In this document: in pieces, positions 11,765 through 40,746 of the stretch
Layout of the letters: each line of letters starts with the position of its first letter
Position numbering within the stretch: position 1 is the stretch's first letter
NCBI GenBank assembly: GCA_017939155.1
Contig: JAGAZZ010000042.1
Location: 1-51,371 of the forward strand
DNA from: Alphaproteobacteria bacterium
GTDB lineage: Bacteria > Pseudomonadota > Alphaproteobacteria > RF32 > CAG-239
DNA length: 51,371 nucleotides
Direction of reading: 5' to 3'
Notes under the pieces: model-generated
Database searches by the model: none
What the model was told of the DNA's origin: nothing
What the model saw: the letters and a program-made list of their open reading frames with translations, nothing else
Translations under genes and position numbers: made by a program

Positions 11765-12289
11765 ATGAAAAAACTATATTTAACGCTTATTGCCACAATG
11801 TTATCATTTAACGCCAACGCGTTTCTCATTTCCCCACACGTCGGGCTGGATTATGTTTCTGCCACGCCTAATGGTTTTGGCGATATAGACAGCCTAAACG
11901 GCGGGGCTTTGAGTGTCGGCGTGAAAGCATTGGGTTTTGTTTCCGTTGAGGGATATTATCAAAAATATTTTTCTACCTCAGTCGCTCACGGTTCAAAAAC
12001 CAAACCGGCGGCGTATGGTGTAGACGCTGTTTTTGATACCTTGAATTTAGGCGTGGTTGAATTGTTAACCACCGTTGGCTATGGCAAATACACCTTAGAC
12101 GGTGGTAAACTGGATAAAAAAATGAAAGATTTTGAAAAAGAAGCCTATCGCGCGGGCTTCGGCGCACAAATAAACCCGACCTCAAATATCGGTATCCGCG
12201 CCATGTATCGCTACGTCTTTCCGGAAGATAATATCTTCAAGAAAAATGTTCAGGAATTCACCGTTGGTCTTAGATATTACTTCTTTTAA
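11765..12289 (+). CDS. Small outer membrane beta-barrel protein
   Basis: A 174-aa exported protein with a Sec signal peptide ending at NANA (about residue 19). It has alternating beta strands and a terminal aromatic strand (FTVGLRYYFF) typical of outer membrane barrels recognised by the Bam machinery. Size and glycine-rich strands (HVGLDYVSA, IGIRAMYRYVFPE) fit an eight-stranded OmpA/OmpX/OmpW-like barrel. An AAGGAG site precedes the ATG and the gene is 10 bases after rnd. The ligand or role is unknown. Confidence 0.75.
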   Translation: MKKLYLTLIATMLSFNANAFLISPHVGLDYVSATPNGFGDIDSLNGGALSVGVKALGFVSVEGYYQKYFSTSVAHGSKTKPAAYGVDAVFDTLNLGVVELLTTVGYGKYTLDGGKLDKKMKDFEKEAYRAGFGAQINPTSNIGIRAMYRYVFPEDNIFKKNVQEFTVGLRYYFF

Positions 12290-34031: not shown

Positions 34032-34937
34032 ATGGAAAAACAAATTATAGAAATAAGTAACGATGGCTTTTATTTGTCATTGTTTCGCGGGTTTTTAGTG
34101 ATAGAAAACGATAGCTTAAACATAAAGCAAAACGCGCCGCTAGATAATATTTTATCACTGGTTCTTTCCGCAAATAATGTAATAATCTCTAAAAATATAG
34201 TTAATGCGATATGTGAAAATGGAGGAGTTATAATTTTTTGCGATAAATGTTATCTTCCGAGCGCCATAACACTTCCCTATACAGGACATTGGCTAATAGC
34301 TCCACGCATAAAGCAGCAAATAGATTGTTCGCTGCCTCTGCAAAAAAATCTCTGGAAAAATATTGTACAACATAAAATTCTCAATCAAGCAAATGTGTTA
34401 GAACATTTTTTTCCCGAACATCAAAACTTAGAACGATTGAGATGGCTGGCTAAAGAAACTCTGAGCAATGATGCCAGAAATCATGAGGGACAAGCGGCAA
34501 GTATTTATTTTAAATCATTATTTGGTAAAAAATTTGTGCGTGATAGATTAAGCGATGACCTCAATATTTTATTAAATTATAGCTATACTATTCTTAGAGC
34601 AATAGTAGCAAGAGCTGTTGCAGGAAATGGTCTATTGCCCTATTTAGGAATAAAACATTGCAATAAAACTAATCCCATGCCTTTAGTGGATGATTTAATC
34701 GAGCCGTTTCGTGCGGTTGCTGATAAAATTGTTTATGATGAAGTTAATAAGCTTATAAATATAGACCATATAGAATTAACCCCGGAAATCAAGAGAAATA
34801 TAACCAAAATAATTACATATCCCGTACAGACAGAAAAAGGATGTGTTTCTCTAAATGATGCCATATACGATTTTGTGGCCAGCTTAGTTGTAAGCTATGA
34901 AATGAAAACAGTAGCATTAAGGTATCCCGAGATTTAA
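34032..34937 (+). CDS. cas1: CRISPR integrase Cas1, type II
   Basis: 301 aa, the usual length for type II Cas1. The metal-binding triad of the integrase is visible: Glu152 in NHEGQAASIYFKSLF, His209 in YLGIKHCNK and Glu224 in DLIEPFR. GGAGAA sits six bases before the ATG. Together with Cas2 it inserts new spacers at the array leader end. It is on the plus strand, separated from cas2 and cas9 by a 100-aa gene and the whole array. This differs from the usual cas9-cas1-cas2-array order of type II-C. Confidence 0.96.
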   Translation: MEKQIIEISNDGFYLSLFRGFLVIENDSLNIKQNAPLDNILSLVLSANNVIISKNIVNAICENGGVIIFCDKCYLPSAITLPYTGHWLIAPRIKQQIDCSLPLQKNLWKNIVQHKILNQANVLEHFFPEHQNLERLRWLAKETLSNDARNHEGQAASIYFKSLFGKKFVRDRLSDDLNILLNYSYTILRAIVARAVAGNGLLPYLGIKHCNKTNPMPLVDDLIEPFRAVADKIVYDEVNKLINIDHIELTPEIKRNITKIITYPVQTEKGCVSLNDAIYDFVASLVVSYEMKTVALRYPEI

Positions 34938-35000: not shown

Positions 35001-35303
35001 ATGACAATTTATAAACGTTCAAAATTGACACCGGAAATTTTAAAACAATGGAAACGTGACGCTCAAAAAGATTTAATTTACATTCAAGCGAATAGTATTT
35101 TTGATTTACAGATGGCCATTAGCGAGAGTGAAGAAACAAACGAAGTAGAATTAACTGAAAACGGGAAAGTGTTGGTTGATGGTTACCTGTGTGGATATTG
35201 GCGCCAAAAAGACAATAAATATATATGGTACACACCGGGAGAAGGTTTAGAAGATACTCACTACGCCTCAAGTACAAAAATTATTCAAGGTCCATGGAAA
35301 TAA
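35001..35303 (+). CDS. 100-aa protein of unknown function between cas1 and the array
   Basis: An excellent AAGGAG lies before the ATG, 63 bases after the cas1 stop on the same strand, so cotranscription with cas1 is likely. The protein starts MTIYKRSKLTPEILKQWKRD (basic helix), then an acidic segment (SESEETNEVELTENGKVL) and a compact Trp/Tyr-rich end (GYLCGYWRQKDNKYIWYTPG). It is not Cas2, Csn2 or Cas4: size and motifs do not match, and cas2 is found elsewhere. It occupies the slot where cas2 normally sits. An accessory adaptation factor, a regulator, an anti-CRISPR or an unrelated gene are all open. Confidence 0.7.
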   Translation: MTIYKRSKLTPEILKQWKRDAQKDLIYIQANSIFDLQMAISESEETNEVELTENGKVLVDGYLCGYWRQKDNKYIWYTPGEGLEDTHYASSTKIIQGPWK

Positions 35304-35322: not shown

Positions 35323-36547
35323 AACTAAAGTAACTGTCTAATTAATCTCTGATATAACCAGTATTTTCAAGACCAGAATTAGCAATATGTTATAGTTGAC
35401 TGTCTAATTAATCTCTGATATAACAAAATATCGAACAGGGATACGTCCGCTTATGTTATAGTTGACTGTCTAATTAATCTCTGATATAACATACCTTCGG
35501 TTATCGCTTTATGAGTTTTAGTTATAGTTGACTGTCTAATTAATCTCTGATATAACTTTCACTATAAAATTCTTGTCCACGTTTGCGTTATAGTTGACTG
35601 TCTAATTAATCTCTGATATAACAGATAGACACGGAGTTCTGATAGTTCCCGAAGTTATAGTTGACTGTCTAATTAATCTCTGATATAACTTAAGCAACAC
35701 AGGATTATTAGACAAATCAGTTATAGTTGACTGTCTAATTAATCTCTGATATAACGGGCGTAAAGGCTGTATTACTCCGCTAAAAGTTATAGTTGACTGT
35801 CTAATTAATCTCTGATATAACACAAAGCATTAGCATTCTTTATCTGATTATGTTATAGTTGACTGTCTAATTAATCTCTGATATAACACGTATTCGACTT
35901 TATTTGCGCAACCGGATGTTATAGTTGACTGTCTAATTAATCTCTGATATAACCCATCTGTGAGAAAACTCTGCGCCGGTTGCGTTATAGTTGACTGTCT
36001 AATTAATCTCTGATATAACATACATACAAAACATACAACCGGTTCTTTCGGTTATAGTTGACTGTCTAATTAATCTCTGATATAACCAAATTTAAACAAT
36101 GTTGGTGAATTATAAAGTTATAGTTGACTGTCTAATTAATCTCTGATATAACATTAAAAAGCTCTTCTCGCGTTCGATGAGGTTATAGTTGACTGTCTAA
36201 TTAATCTCTGATATAACAAGCAAGGCGAAAGCGTTGACGCACAAACTGTTATAGTTGACTGTCTAATTAATCTCTGATATAACAATTGTTTTCATACCTA
36301 AACGCCTAAAATGGTTATAGTTGACTGTCTAATTAATCTCTGATATAACTCTACACTTACGTTGGTTGTATGTGAACCTGTTATAGTTGACTGTCTAATT
36401 AATCTCTGATATAACTTCTAAAGGCTCTAATTGGGTGAAGTTTACGTTATAGTTGACTGTCTAATTAATCTCTGATATAACTATGATTTGCCTGATGGCG
36501 CGACGTGCTATGTTATAGTTGACTGTCTAATTAATCTCTGATATAAC
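35323..36547 (+). CRISPR. Type II-C CRISPR array, 19 repeats and 18 spacers
   Basis: The 36-bp repeat begins GTTATAGTTGACTGTC and ends AATCTCTGATATAAC; spacers are 29-31 bp (15 of 30). Starts are 35323 (degenerate in its first ten bases), 35389, 35455, 35521, 35587, 35654, 35720, 35786, 35852, 35918, 35984, 36051, 36117, 36182, 36248, 36314, 36380, 36446 and 36512. All repeats except the first are identical by eye. The plus strand is the crRNA strand, because the tracrRNA anti-repeat at 40652-40675 complements it. Each full repeat holds TTGACT (repeat bases 8-13), 17 bases, TATAAC (31-36), a promoter reading into the adjoining spacer. Confidence 0.99.
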
Positions 36548-36561
36548 CTAATAAGGCTAAA

Positions 36562-36600
36562 GGTTTGAAAATAACTAAATTTTCAAGCCCTTTTCATTTT
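36562..36600 (+). terminator. Terminator-like hairpin at the array end, inside the putative leader
   Basis: GGTTTGAAAA (36562-36571) pairs with TTTTCAAGCC (36580-36589), one G-U pair, followed by CTTTTCATTTT. It would stop plus-strand array transcripts before they run into cas2-cas9. The A/T-rich stretch 36,548-36,693 also holds an inverted repeat CCGAAT/ATTCGG (36640-36645 with 36661-36666) and is the likely leader if new spacers enter at this end. Confidence 0.55.
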
Positions 36601-36693
36601 AAAAATAAAATATATAAAAGCAAAATTTCTCGAAAATAGCCGAATTTTTAATGAGAATCGATTCGGAAAAGTCAAAAAATTTAATATATTTCT

Positions 36694-37014
36694 TTAAAAA
36701 AGTAACAACTGTCCTTCTTTCTCGCGCATTTCTTCCTCGTTTTCTTCATAATTTTTCCCCAGATAATTTTCTGTCATCAAATATTGCTTATCTGTAATAT
36801 ACAAAAAGGAAACAGAACTATTATCCGGAACAAAACGAGATATTTTTTTCACCAAATTACGCCCAACATCAAGACTCTTGACAGGTTTCAGATAAACCGA
36901 AAACTGTTTCATCACAAATCCGTTATCAAGAAGCGCATTGCGAAAACGTGTAGCTTTCCGCGATTCGGTACGAGTTCTAACAGGGCAGTCAAACATACAG
37001 ATTATCCACATCAT
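36694..37014 (-). CDS. cas2: CRISPR adaptation protein Cas2
   Basis: 106 aa from the ATG at 37014, 19 bases after the cas9 stop; the frame is open further into cas9, but the Cas2 fold begins at MMWIICMFDCPV. The first beta strand with Asp (MFDCPV), the RKATRFRNALLDNGF helix and QFSVYLK are typical of type II Cas2. The C-terminal 30 residues are an acidic then charged tail ending LLLF. Cas2 forms the core of the Cas1-Cas2 integrase. It is cotranscribed with cas9 but unlinked in transcription from cas1. Confidence 0.93.
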   Translation of the reverse strand: MMWIICMFDCPVRTRTESRKATRFRNALLDNGFVMKQFSVYLKPVKSLDVGRNLVKKISRFVPDNSSVSFLYITDKQYLMTENYLGKNYEENEEEMREKEGQLLLF

Positions 37015-37033
37015 CGACCACCCAGTTAATGTT

Positions 37034-40000
37034 TCAGCTCTTTGCCTTCGTGCCATTCCAAAGCACCTTATGCTTTTTCTTAACCTTACCAAATGGCGTG
37101 AGTTCAATTTTTCGCGCCTTGTTTTTCGTAAAATAACTTAAACCACGATTAACCAAACTTCCTACTAACATATATTCGGGGTCTTCTTTTGCTTTTGTTG
37201 TGCCTCTTGCATCCGTTACATAGTCAATGGCGATAGAACCTGCACTAAACTTCTTTACTCTTGCCAAGCATCTGTCTTTATCAGTATATCCTTTCCATTC
37301 TTCTGGCGTATTTAACTCTAATAAATCTCCTTGCTGAATAGACCAGATAATTTTCCCACCATCTTTCTTCCATTGTGGTACAAAATCAGCTTGGTTGATG
37401 TCAAAACGTTTAATAACTTCCCAACCAACTTTACCGTCTTTTTCAAAGAAATCGACACAATGGTTGTTACGTCCTTCATAAGCAAGTTTATGCTTAGGAA
37501 TATAAACCAGCGAAGAATTATTTTCGTAACACTTAAAATTATCACCTTTCCATAGTTTTTTATCTTGAATAATACGGAAAGCTTTAGTTAAGATTCGTCC
37601 TTCGGTGATTTTGATTTCTTTTTTTCCGTCTTGGATAGCTTGCTCATTTTCTGCAATTAAAATTTGCTCTGCCGTATTTGCGTAAAGTTCAAAATTTTCT
37701 TTGAGTTTTGCTTGTTTCGCTTTATTTTCGGCAATTTCTTCCGCCCATTCATCTTTGATAGTGTCAGGTACTAAAAGTTTATCTAAATCTTTGAAAGATT
37801 TGACAACTTGTAATACTTTGCGCGAATATGATGTAATTAAAGCCTCATTATCTTCAGGATTAGTGCATAAAACGATACGTCCAGTTTCTTTATGAAATTG
37901 TCCTGCTTTACTATGATTCGGCTTATGCGAAACATTGATATTTTTTAACACTTCAATAACCCGACGGCGAAAATCGCCAACAGAATGAACACTCGTTAAA
38001 GGCAATGGATACTCAAGCCGTCGCAAATCCATTTCCTTAGCCATCTTTTGAATAAGCGAGCGATTAGCGCAGGCCACAGTAATCGCATCCATTGCATGAT
38101 GACGGTGGTCAATACGCGGTTTTTTCTTCCAATCAGGATTAGACTTAGTTACTTGTCTTTTCCAGCAATTATCATAATCGGGCATACATTCGCCGTCTAT
38201 GACCTCTCCTGTTTTTTCGTTTACCCAATAAGGGGAACACGAAATTTTTTCTGGTACGCTGTCATTAAGTCCTGCTAAATCATATTCTATTCCCCAAAGG
38301 TACCAATGTTTGCGAAGCTCTGCTGTCTGCCCGCCTTTGACTGCCAAAATGCGCGTGTGTATCACTTCGTCACTATCATCGCAGTCAATAATAGCCCGCA
38401 AATAGCGTTGTGCCATTTTTGAAACATACCGCGTATCTGTCAAATAGCGATTCGTTTCATCTTCATCCCCATTGTCTTCAAATTTTTCACGTGCGTCAGC
38501 TTCAAAACGCCATGCTTTTTGCGGCATACGCTTGCGTGCATTTTCTAAAATTTTGCGAATAACCTCTGGCTCTTTGGTCTGTTCAAAATATTCGTATGCA
38601 AATCTATCACCTTTATTCAGATTGTCCTTGCGATTAACCAGACACAGATTCGAGTAAGTATCAGTCCCTCCTTTGGCTTGTGGAATAATATGCTCAATTT
38701 CGAAACCGCTGAAATTTTGCGGTATTTCCACACGAGGGTCATACGCATCAACCCAGCCTTGCTCTTTAGCAAGCTTGTATTTCAAAATATTGTTACGATT
38801 AACAAATAATTTTCGCTCATTTAAATATTTTTTTGCTTCTTCGTTTAATTTTTCATTTTGTTTTTGCTTTATTTCCTCCTGCTTCTTCTTTTTAGTTGAC
38901 ATCCCGACATCGCGTCCTAGCTCTAAATTAATGTCGTATGGCTTACCATAAATGCGGATAATGTCATTAACCACCAAACGTATCTGATTTAGAATCATAT
39001 GTACAGCAGGGTTGGCAATTTTGCCCCAGCGTATTTCATCAGGATTAAGGTTTGTATTGTTTTGAATAACAAGATGCGGCAAAGGTTGCGTATCCGTTTG
39101 CAAAATCTCTCCGTAATAAGGTAAAGAACAACACTTTCCTTGCATGGTGCGGGCAATTTCTTCTTCCGCCATAAAACGCGTATCTTCTTTTGCTAATCTA
39201 TCGGTAATTTCACGAGGGGATAAAACCTCTTGTTTCATCTCTGCAAGTAAAATTTCCGTAGCGGATTTTCCAAGCATTCCCCGCCCTTTGGGAAGTTTTG
39301 TTAAAAGGTTACCAATCTCCTTTTCGTCTTCAATGTTAAGAAGTTCTTTTAATTGTAAAATAAGCTTGTCTTCGTTGAGCAACCGGCCATTTATATCGTT
39401 TTCATCTTTTGGTTCAGCCAAAAATTCAACAAACTCTGCCAATTTCTCACCAGATAAATTTTTAATATATTCAACGTTCATAAACTCTGGACGCGAATAC
39501 AAATAAGCTTTTATAACTTTATCATCAATAAGAGAAATTTTAATCTGACCACTAAAATTAAGCAGTTCTTTGATTAATTTCTTACCTGCGTTTTTCCCTT
39601 TAAGTAAAAGCTCATTGATAATTTTATCGCGTTCTTCAAGGGTTAAGCGCCGCCTTCCCATATCCGTTTCAATGCGAATATTATTAACCTCTTCATAAAT
39701 ACGACGCATTTCAGATAATGGGTGCGCTTTCAACAATCTATCTTCATTACGAAAATAAATACACTTTCCAACGGCATACGGAGCAGGGGACTTTTCGTAA
39801 AACAAAATATCGTAGATTTCTTGTTTTAGGCCATCTTTGTTCATTTGTGGAAAGTACTGCGCCTGTGTATCCCAGATTTTATGAAATTCATCTTTTACTA
39901 AATACCGCGGGATAGCATAATCAACAATATTCTTCTCTAAGGCATATTTACTTTGTCTAATGTGTCGCTTTTCGGGAGATTTTTTTTCACCATTTTCATC

Positions 40001-40546
40001 TTTAGCATACCCTTCTTCAATCCGCTTATAAAAATAATCACCGACCGTTAAAGAGTTTGTCTCTTTAAGGTGTTGTAACATCATATCGTATGACGAAACC
40101 TTTCCCTTTTTCTTGGGTGTTGTTCCTTCTTCTAAAATCTCTTCTTCTAATTCTTCGGCTGCAGAAACAAAACCCGCTCCTCTGTGTTTAGCAATATGTA
40201 AAATCGCTCGACCGATATAATGCGGAGAGGCTAATTGTCCAAATAAAGCATCATGACGGATTATATAGGGAGATTTAGAACGCAATCTATCGGTCCCTTC
40301 TGGAGAAGAATCAACCCATAACCCATTCTCAAAAAGTTTTTGCGCTAATAAATTTAATCGTTTCTTTGTACGAATAAGATTTTTTCTGGCAGTTCTTTTT
40401 AAACGCCGCTCCTCAGCCCCTTCCGAAACTTCAAAAATTCGCACTCCGGCATCAATAATATCCATTGCTTCATTGTGCTCATTTAATTGAATAACAGCAC
40501 TTCCAATAGAACCTACACCTAAATCTAATCCTAAACGATACTTCAT
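37034..40546 (-). CDS. cas9: CRISPR endonuclease Cas9, type II-C
   Basis: 1170 aa. RuvC-I is YRLGLDLGVGSIGSAV with Asp8. The Arg-rich bridge helix lies at 46-72 (ERRLKRTARKNLIRTKKRLN). RuvC-II is NLELGRD with Glu542. The HNH motif is GFEIEHIIPQAKGG with His619 and later Asn633/Asn644 in SNLCLVNRKDNLNKG, and RuvC-III is RIDHRHHAMDAI with His816, His817 and Asp820. All catalytic residues are present, so double-strand cleavage is expected. The size and absence of csn2 and cas4 fit II-C. AGGAG precedes the ATG. cas2 follows, and the tracrRNA is divergent upstream. The PAM cannot be read from sequence. Confidence 0.98.
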   Translation of the reverse strand: MKYRLGLDLGVGSIGSAVIQLNEHNEAMDIIDAGVRIFEVSEGAEERRLKRTARKNLIRTKKRLNLLAQKLFENGLWVDSSPEGTDRLRSKSPYIIRHDALFGQLASPHYIGRAILHIAKHRGAGFVSAAEELEEEILEEGTTPKKKGKVSSYDMMLQHLKETNSLTVGDYFYKRIEEGYAKDENGEKKSPEKRHIRQSKYALEKNIVDYAIPRYLVKDEFHKIWDTQAQYFPQMNKDGLKQEIYDILFYEKSPAPYAVGKCIYFRNEDRLLKAHPLSEMRRIYEEVNNIRIETDMGRRRLTLEERDKIINELLLKGKNAGKKLIKELLNFSGQIKISLIDDKVIKAYLYSRPEFMNVEYIKNLSGEKLAEFVEFLAEPKDENDINGRLLNEDKLILQLKELLNIEDEKEIGNLLTKLPKGRGMLGKSATEILLAEMKQEVLSPREITDRLAKEDTRFMAEEEIARTMQGKCCSLPYYGEILQTDTQPLPHLVIQNNTNLNPDEIRWGKIANPAVHMILNQIRLVVNDIIRIYGKPYDINLELGRDVGMSTKKKKQEEIKQKQNEKLNEEAKKYLNERKLFVNRNNILKYKLAKEQGWVDAYDPRVEIPQNFSGFEIEHIIPQAKGGTDTYSNLCLVNRKDNLNKGDRFAYEYFEQTKEPEVIRKILENARKRMPQKAWRFEADAREKFEDNGDEDETNRYLTDTRYVSKMAQRYLRAIIDCDDSDEVIHTRILAVKGGQTAELRKHWYLWGIEYDLAGLNDSVPEKISCSPYWVNEKTGEVIDGECMPDYDNCWKRQVTKSNPDWKKKPRIDHRHHAMDAITVACANRSLIQKMAKEMDLRRLEYPLPLTSVHSVGDFRRRVIEVLKNINVSHKPNHSKAGQFHKETGRIVLCTNPEDNEALITSYSRKVLQVVKSFKDLDKLLVPDTIKDEWAEEIAENKAKQAKLKENFELYANTAEQILIAENEQAIQDGKKEIKITEGRILTKAFRIIQDKKLWKGDNFKCYENNSSLVYIPKHKLAYEGRNNHCVDFFEKDGKVGWEVIKRFDINQADFVPQWKKDGGKIIWSIQQGDLLELNTPEEWKGYTDKDRCLARVKKFSAGSIAIDYVTDARGTTKAKEDPEYMLVGSLVNRGLSYFTKNKARKIELTPFGKVKKKHKVLWNGTKAKS

Positions 40547-40621
40547 AAATTTTCTCCTAAAACAAATATATACAAAAGTTATAGGAAAACTATTGACAAT
40601 TCAAGAAAAATATTGTCATAT

Positions 40622-40627
40622 TATAAT
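40622..40627 (+). promoter_or_regulatory. -10 box for tracrRNA
   Basis: A perfect TATAAT lies about 25 bases before the anti-repeat. TTCAAG, 16 bases upstream (40600-40605), is the best-spaced -35; a perfect TTGACA (40593-40598) is 23 bases away, too far. The same A/T-rich stretch must also hold the divergent cas9 promoter. Confidence 0.5.
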
Positions 40628-40633
40628 GATATT

Positions 40634-40746
40634 TGTGAAGACATAATTTTTTCAGAGATTAATTAGACAGTCAACACATATATAATAAGACTGAAAATGT
40701 CGTAAGATGAGGAGGCAAGAAATTGCCTCCATTATTTTGTAAAAAA
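40634..40746 (+). ncRNA. tracrRNA
   Basis: The anti-repeat at 40652-40675 complements 24 consecutive bases of the CRISPR repeat without mismatch. Next comes a bulge (ACATA), then TATAAT, which can pair with the first six repeat bases (GUUAUA), giving the usual lower stem. A small nexus-like hairpin follows (GAC..GTC), then GGAGGCAA/TTGCCTCC with a GAAA loop at 40711-40730, and a U-rich end. It pairs with crRNA to load Cas9. The order anti-repeat, nexus, terminal hairpin is standard. Exact ends are estimated. Confidence 0.9.

Follow-up and report, generated by a model that had tools for sequence, protein, structure and literature searches.

A predicted sigma70 promoter within the repeats of an alphaproteobacterial type II-C CRISPR array

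The CRISPR-Cas locus and its relatives

The window, i.e., the whole 51,371-nucleotide stretch of contig JAGAZZ010000042.1 analysed here, comes from an AT-rich alphaproteobacterium of the gut or rumen and contains a CRISPR array of 19 repeats and 18 spacers (35323-36547, + strand) flanked by cas genes and a tracrRNA gene. The features to which we refer below are the following.

34032-34937, + strand: cas1 (type II, TIGR03639), upstream of the array and co-directional with it
35001-35303, + strand: open reading frame of 100 amino acids between cas1 and the array
35323-35358, + strand: degenerate first repeat, AACTAAAGTAACTG..., with GTAACT at the -35 position, the extended -10 TGATATAAC retained and a score of 0.3 bits in the host promoter model
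35389-36547, + strand: repeats 2-19, 18 identical copies of the 36-nt sequence GTTATAGTTGACTGTCTAATTAATCTCTGATATAAC, with 17 spacers of 29-31 nt in between
35396-35401, + strand: putative -35 box TTGACT in repeat 2, placed identically in the other 17 intact repeats
35416-35424, + strand: putative extended -10 element TGATATAAC in repeat 2; every intact repeat has it at bases 28-36
36562-36602, + strand: intrinsic terminator, a hairpin and its T-rich tail, directly downstream of repeat 19, at the presumed leader (acquisition) end
36694-37059, - strand: cas2 (TIGR01573), convergent with the array
37034-40546, - strand: cas9, 1170 amino acids (TIGR01865, E 2.7e-141; Pfam matches to RuvC_III and HNH)
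about 40620-40745 (5' end approximate), + strand: tracrRNA gene with anti-repeat, bulge, lower stem and terminator

The locus belongs to type II-C: it encodes a Cas9 with RuvC and HNH domains, has cas1 and cas2, adjoins a tracrRNA gene, and none of the neighbouring open reading frames searched matches csn2 (II-A) or cas4 (II-B). The cas9-cas1-cas2 order facing the array, which is typical of II-C systems and not part of their definition, is absent from the window. Cas9 relatives with 64-76% identity occur in the same bacterial family, and 14 arrays of this clade, including that of the window, were read. Relatives named in the genome collection are a Pseudomonadota metagenome-assembled genome and an Alphaproteobacteria metagenome-assembled genome from roe-deer rumen. 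In each of the 14 array-bearing loci of the clade (the window and L033-L045), the array stands between cas1 and the oppositely oriented cas2-cas9 pair; in the other array-bearing loci of the class, cas9, cas1 and cas2 stand together on one side of the array. Within this clade, cas1 has changed sides relative to the array. The 100-residue product of the open frame between cas1 and the array has no match in Pfam, NCBIfam or PADLOC. In L038 and L045 a homologue lies at the equivalent position, and other genomes of the family carry homologues elsewhere.

Putative promoter elements of the repeat and the host promoter model

Bases 8-13 of each intact repeat read TTGACT and bases 31-36 read TATAAC, the two hexamers being 17 nt apart and each deviating by one mismatch from TTGACA and TATAAT, respectively. 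Bases 28-29 are TG, and this dinucleotide, overlooked in the original prediction, turns the -10 box into an extended one. That prediction had assigned a TTGACT-17-TATAAC promoter in the crRNA direction to every repeat; the arrangement is read directly in 18 identical repeats, and the statement thus holds for 18 of the 19, failing for the degenerate repeat 1, which lies just outside the stretch for which it was made. Repeat 1 diverges across its first ten bases, and its -35 box has been lost with them, as had been recognised from its GTAACT.

Because the genome is that of an AT-rich alphaproteobacterium, we derived the promoter matrix from the host's own tRNA genes, applying expectation maximisation to 28 of their upstream regions. 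The promoters found in these upstream regions (L052-L081) follow the pattern TTG[AC][AC][AT], 15-17 nt, TATAAA, with A at position -7 in 76% and T in 9%; those of tRNA-Lys and tRNA-Glu read TTGACT-17-TATAAA. It was reported that most alphaproteobacterial sigma70 promoters lack the -7T, and a CarD-type factor was proposed to serve such promoters (PMC8407463); a CarD-domain protein is encoded in the host genome by a 171-aa open frame. Since -7 is mostly A in this host and alphaproteobacterial promoters usually do without -7T, TATAAC is an acceptable -10 box here. The one mismatch per box noted originally is correct for both boxes, with the refinement that the mismatch in the -10 box is the loss of -7T, a base which 17 of the 18 other II-C repeats in the class sample have and which is mostly absent from alphaproteobacterial promoters anyway. 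A generic promoter scan detected none of the repeat sites because the scanner demands T at -7.

Scored with the host model, the repeat reaches 11.4 bits, compared with a leave-one-out median of 10.6 bits for the tRNA promoters. Outside the array, 0.024% of the positions in the window score at least 11.4 bits, as do 0.45% of the dinucleotide shuffles of the repeat. All 18 sites of this score lie on the + strand and point in one direction; the reverse strand of the repeat scores -5.7 bits, and promoters firing from the opposite strand were rejected, no site of at least 9 bits being present on the - strand of the array.

The tracrRNA and the direction of crRNA synthesis

The tracrRNA gene provides an independent measure of strand. 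Its anti-repeat (40652-40675) is a 24-nt perfect complement of repeat bases 7-30 and is followed by a bulge, by the lower-stem partner TATAAT (40681-40686), which pairs with repeat bases 1-6, and by a terminator hairpin (40711-40730); all four elements are kept in the relatives. The anti-repeat and the terminator together mean that crRNA is made from the + strand, and this bears out the original claim that the promoters point in the crRNA direction. The -10 box (bases 31-36) lies outside the paired stretch 7-30, and tracrRNA pairing thus cannot account for it. The -35 box lies inside that stretch, and pairing might thus be another reason for its conservation.

It is conceivable, then, that the -35 match reflects nothing but the tracrRNA-pairing segment and that the extended -10 alone acts as the promoter. 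This would agree with the complete pairing of bases 7-30, with the extended -10 being the sole element named for Campylobacter jejuni (PMC3656092) and proposed for Clostridium cellulolyticum, and with several class repeats, e.g., those with CTTCCT or TTTCCC, that have no recognisable -35. TTGAC, however, is invariant in all 14 clade repeats and is kept even where the partner base in the tracrRNA has changed (L042 and L039). The -35 match at a spacing of 16-18 averages 5.0/6 in the clade and 3.8/6 in the other class repeats, against about 2.5 and 2.4, respectively, in shuffles that hold the -10 region fixed, and 0 of 2000 such shuffles reached the observed level. We consider a purely pairing-determined -35 unlikely, and the earlier remark that the -35 is stronger than usual is borne out by the comparison of 5/6 in the clade with the mean of 3.8/6 elsewhere in the class.

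Repeat ends across the clade and the class

The backbone of the clade repeats is nearly fixed and their last four bases vary among the 14 arrays. The ends read TATAAC (the window and L043), TATAAT, TATAGT, TATGTT, TATGCT, TACGTT, TACATT, TAAGCT and TACGTA; the -10 boxes of the relatives are often poor, as in TACGTT and TAAGCT, with scores of 3.4-6.5 bits. On the clade Cas9 tree base 36 changes 3 times and bases 33, 34 and 35 change 4, 2 and 6 times, so that base 36 does not clearly stand out from the three before it; the conservation of base 36 within the clade was rejected as proof, three changes being too weak alone. Variation is also seen within single arrays: in L045 the older copies end in TATGTT and the newer in TATGCT, and along the array of L033 the tail passes from TACGCT to TACGTA. 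In both arrays one repeat variant seems to have replaced another during array growth. Among other irregularities, a pair of neighbouring spacers recurs together in L043, one spacer is present twice in L037, and L039 carries at 12024-12059 a lone repeat-like copy, GTTATGGTTGACCGTTTAATTAATCTCTGATAAACA, beyond the tracrRNA and in the sense of the array.

The wider alphaproteobacterial sample comprised 25 arrays. A nexus-motif search was unreliable for orienting their tracrRNAs, and the arrays were oriented instead according to which side carries the tracrRNA terminator; this succeeded for 18 of the 25 and made no use of the repeat ends. In these 18 repeats, which are related by shared ancestry, T31 and A32 are invariant, bases 33-35 are free, and base 36 is T (i.e., TAnnnT) in 17; TATAAC is the end of the remaining one.

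The ends of the window repeat are perfectly palindromic (GTTATA/TATAAC), and base 36 adjoins the presumed leader end, where an integrase could need a given base. Such ends might thus have been set by Cas1-Cas2 integration, through terminal inverted repeats or the leader boundary, with TATAAC being no more than the palindromic partner of GTTATA. The window repeat, with its palindrome kept and its -7T missing, is nevertheless unlike most sampled repeats: the terminal pair is broken in 12 of the 14 clade repeats and in 17 of the 18 others of the class, where the 36/1 pair is Watson-Crick in only 6%, and bases 33-35 vary freely. Palindromy, moreover, predicts no -35 at 17 nt. An origin of the ends in integration thus appears highly improbable; judged from their letters, the class repeat ends look like -10 boxes rather than palindromes.

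The two ends of the array

A degenerate repeat is found at the 5' end of clade arrays wherever one is seen, and the first repeats of the clade have lost bases 1-16 and kept the extended -10. The same was described for II-C arrays in general, in which the first 15 nt of the oldest repeat, at the 5' end, are mutated, and was explained as the removal of an "extraneous" crRNA (PMC12080349). The weakness that the original prediction ascribed to the first repeat is real, and it can now be seen as a case of a decay general in II-C. Spacer 1 (35359-35388), which lies 5' of the 18 intact repeats, may be weakly expressed by way of repeat 1, whose -35 is gone.

The 5' flanks of the clade arrays contain no conserved leader. 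In 6/14 relatives cas1 extends into the first repeat, where its stop codon is found, and in two more cas1 ends 3-9 nt before that repeat, which leaves no room for a leader promoter there. In the window, the host model gives no site above 8.3 bits between cas1 and the array. An alternative source of RNA would be read-through from cas1, or from a promoter inside it, yielding one long pre-crRNA, with the boxes in the repeats being by-products of other constraints. It would be helped by cas1 being co-directional and, in several relatives, directly adjoining the first repeat or running into it. It would also be helped by two features of the window, where the interval from cas1 to the array has no terminator and cas1 itself contains a host-model site of 9.7 bits at 34618. 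Read-through leaves unexplained, however, both the match to host promoters on one strand only and the TAnnnT ends of the class, which recur in those class loci that lack a cas1 upstream of the array; as the only route to crRNA it is, in our opinion, rather improbable, and it may coexist with promoters in the repeats.

The 3' flank of the clade arrays is conserved, and the terminator hairpin starts about 10-16 nt beyond the last repeat in the 14 arrays. The RNAalifold consensus has 18 pairs, 12 of them with two-sided changes that preserve pairing. Strictly defined terminators are present in the 3' flanks of 11 of the 14 arrays vs 0.3 expected from shuffles, and in one 5' flank vs 0.6 expected. 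Of the 25 wider class arrays, 8 have a similar terminator at a distance of 6-12 nt from their last repeat; the class-set listing of 5'-flank terminators leaves out L117 and L122, the entries of which were slicing errors. In II-C systems arrays are transcribed toward the acquisition end (PMC12080349, PMC8092290), and the 5' degenerate repeat, the conserved 3' flank and the 3' terminator fit this rule. We infer that spacers are acquired at the downstream (3', cas2-proximal) end. The three newest spacers have no exact protospacer matches in IMG/VR.

Proposed mechanism of crRNA synthesis

Taken at the level of sequence, the data are best described by the known II-C model in which every intact repeat provides the start of a separate crRNA, and we regard this as very probable for the window. 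Points against it are the often poor -10 boxes of the relatives, the changes of base 36 within the clade, the location of the -35 in the paired stretch, the shared ancestry of the class repeats, and the palindromic end without -7T of the window repeat. Each intact repeat would act as a sigma70 promoter with the -35 TTGACT (bases 8-13) and the extended -10 TGATATAAC (bases 28-36). The polymerase bound at repeat n would start near base 7 of the next spacer (range 5-9), which for the first intact repeat places the expected start at about 35431 (sigma70 geometry, PMC3656092). The RNA would cover about 24 of the 30 spacer nucleotides as guide and enter repeat n+1, which would pair with the tracrRNA, whereupon RNase III would trim the 3' end; the 5' end would be the primary start and need no trimming. 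The position, strand and spacing of the promoter and the predicted start inside each spacer, all contained in the original prediction, agree with the II-C mechanism shown experimentally. Promoters and RNase III are not alternatives to each other, RNase III being the expected maker of the 3' end.

New spacers would join at the 3', cas2-proximal end, and since they are added there the array would manage without a leader promoter. The first repeat would serve as a promoter only. The last repeat would also fire, and its useless RNA would meet the terminator within about 40 nt, so that transcripts would be stopped before they enter cas2-cas9 in antisense. The array can probably produce each of its guides independently of the others, and read-through from cas1 could supply a long pre-crRNA as well. 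A fuller reading for the clade, to which we give slightly less than an even chance, is that its repeat can be a complete -35/-10 promoter of tRNA strength, that the terminator at the acquisition end shields cas2-cas9, that cas1 has come to lie at the oldest end, and that read-through and the repeat promoters could both feed the array.

Relation to known systems and significance

Neisseria and Campylobacter are known to have systems of this kind, and per-repeat promoters were stated for II-C in general (PMC12080349). In C. jejuni, dRNA-seq revealed repeat-embedded promoters with the start at spacer position 5 (PMC3656092). The window resembles that system in the -10 located in the last repeat bases, in the predicted start inside the spacer and in the expected use of tracrRNA and RNase III for the 3' end (PMC3656092); it differs in the order of cas1 and in that C. 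jejuni has an extended -10 only (GGTAAAAT), whereas here there is also the -35 TTGACT at 17 nt and a -10 without -7T. Neisseria meningitidis has a promoter in every repeat and crRNAs without 5' processing (Zhang et al. 2013, as cited in PMC7038990 and PMC10309648); according to these citing papers its promoter was shown experimentally, whereas the present one is predicted, and its repeat sequence is a different one. In Clostridium cellulolyticum H10, the crRNAs of which carry 23-26 nt of spacer, the array likewise runs opposite to cas genes and the repeat resembles an extended -10 in its last nine bases, but all cas genes lie on one side of the array and no -35 was noted (PMC7038990). The II-C survey agrees with our loci in the mutated oldest 5' repeat, and with what is predicted for them in acquisition at the last repeat and in per-repeat promoters; it stresses terminators upstream of the array, whereas the conserved terminator of this clade is downstream, by the newest repeat (PMC12080349). 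The present analysis adds the calibration against host promoters, the class-wide TAnnnT signature and, for the clade, the full -35, the terminator downstream of the array and the changed position of cas1.

Repeat-embedded crRNA promoters have been shown experimentally in few species, and the present analysis extends their prediction to a class with a different sigma70 consensus. The repeat ends TATAAC, TATAAT, TATGCT, TACGTT and others form a natural series on one backbone, which would allow the dependence of crRNA level on promoter strength to be tested at constant tracrRNA pairing. The conserved downstream terminator would be a simple reason why arrays that fire at their own cas genes are harmless.
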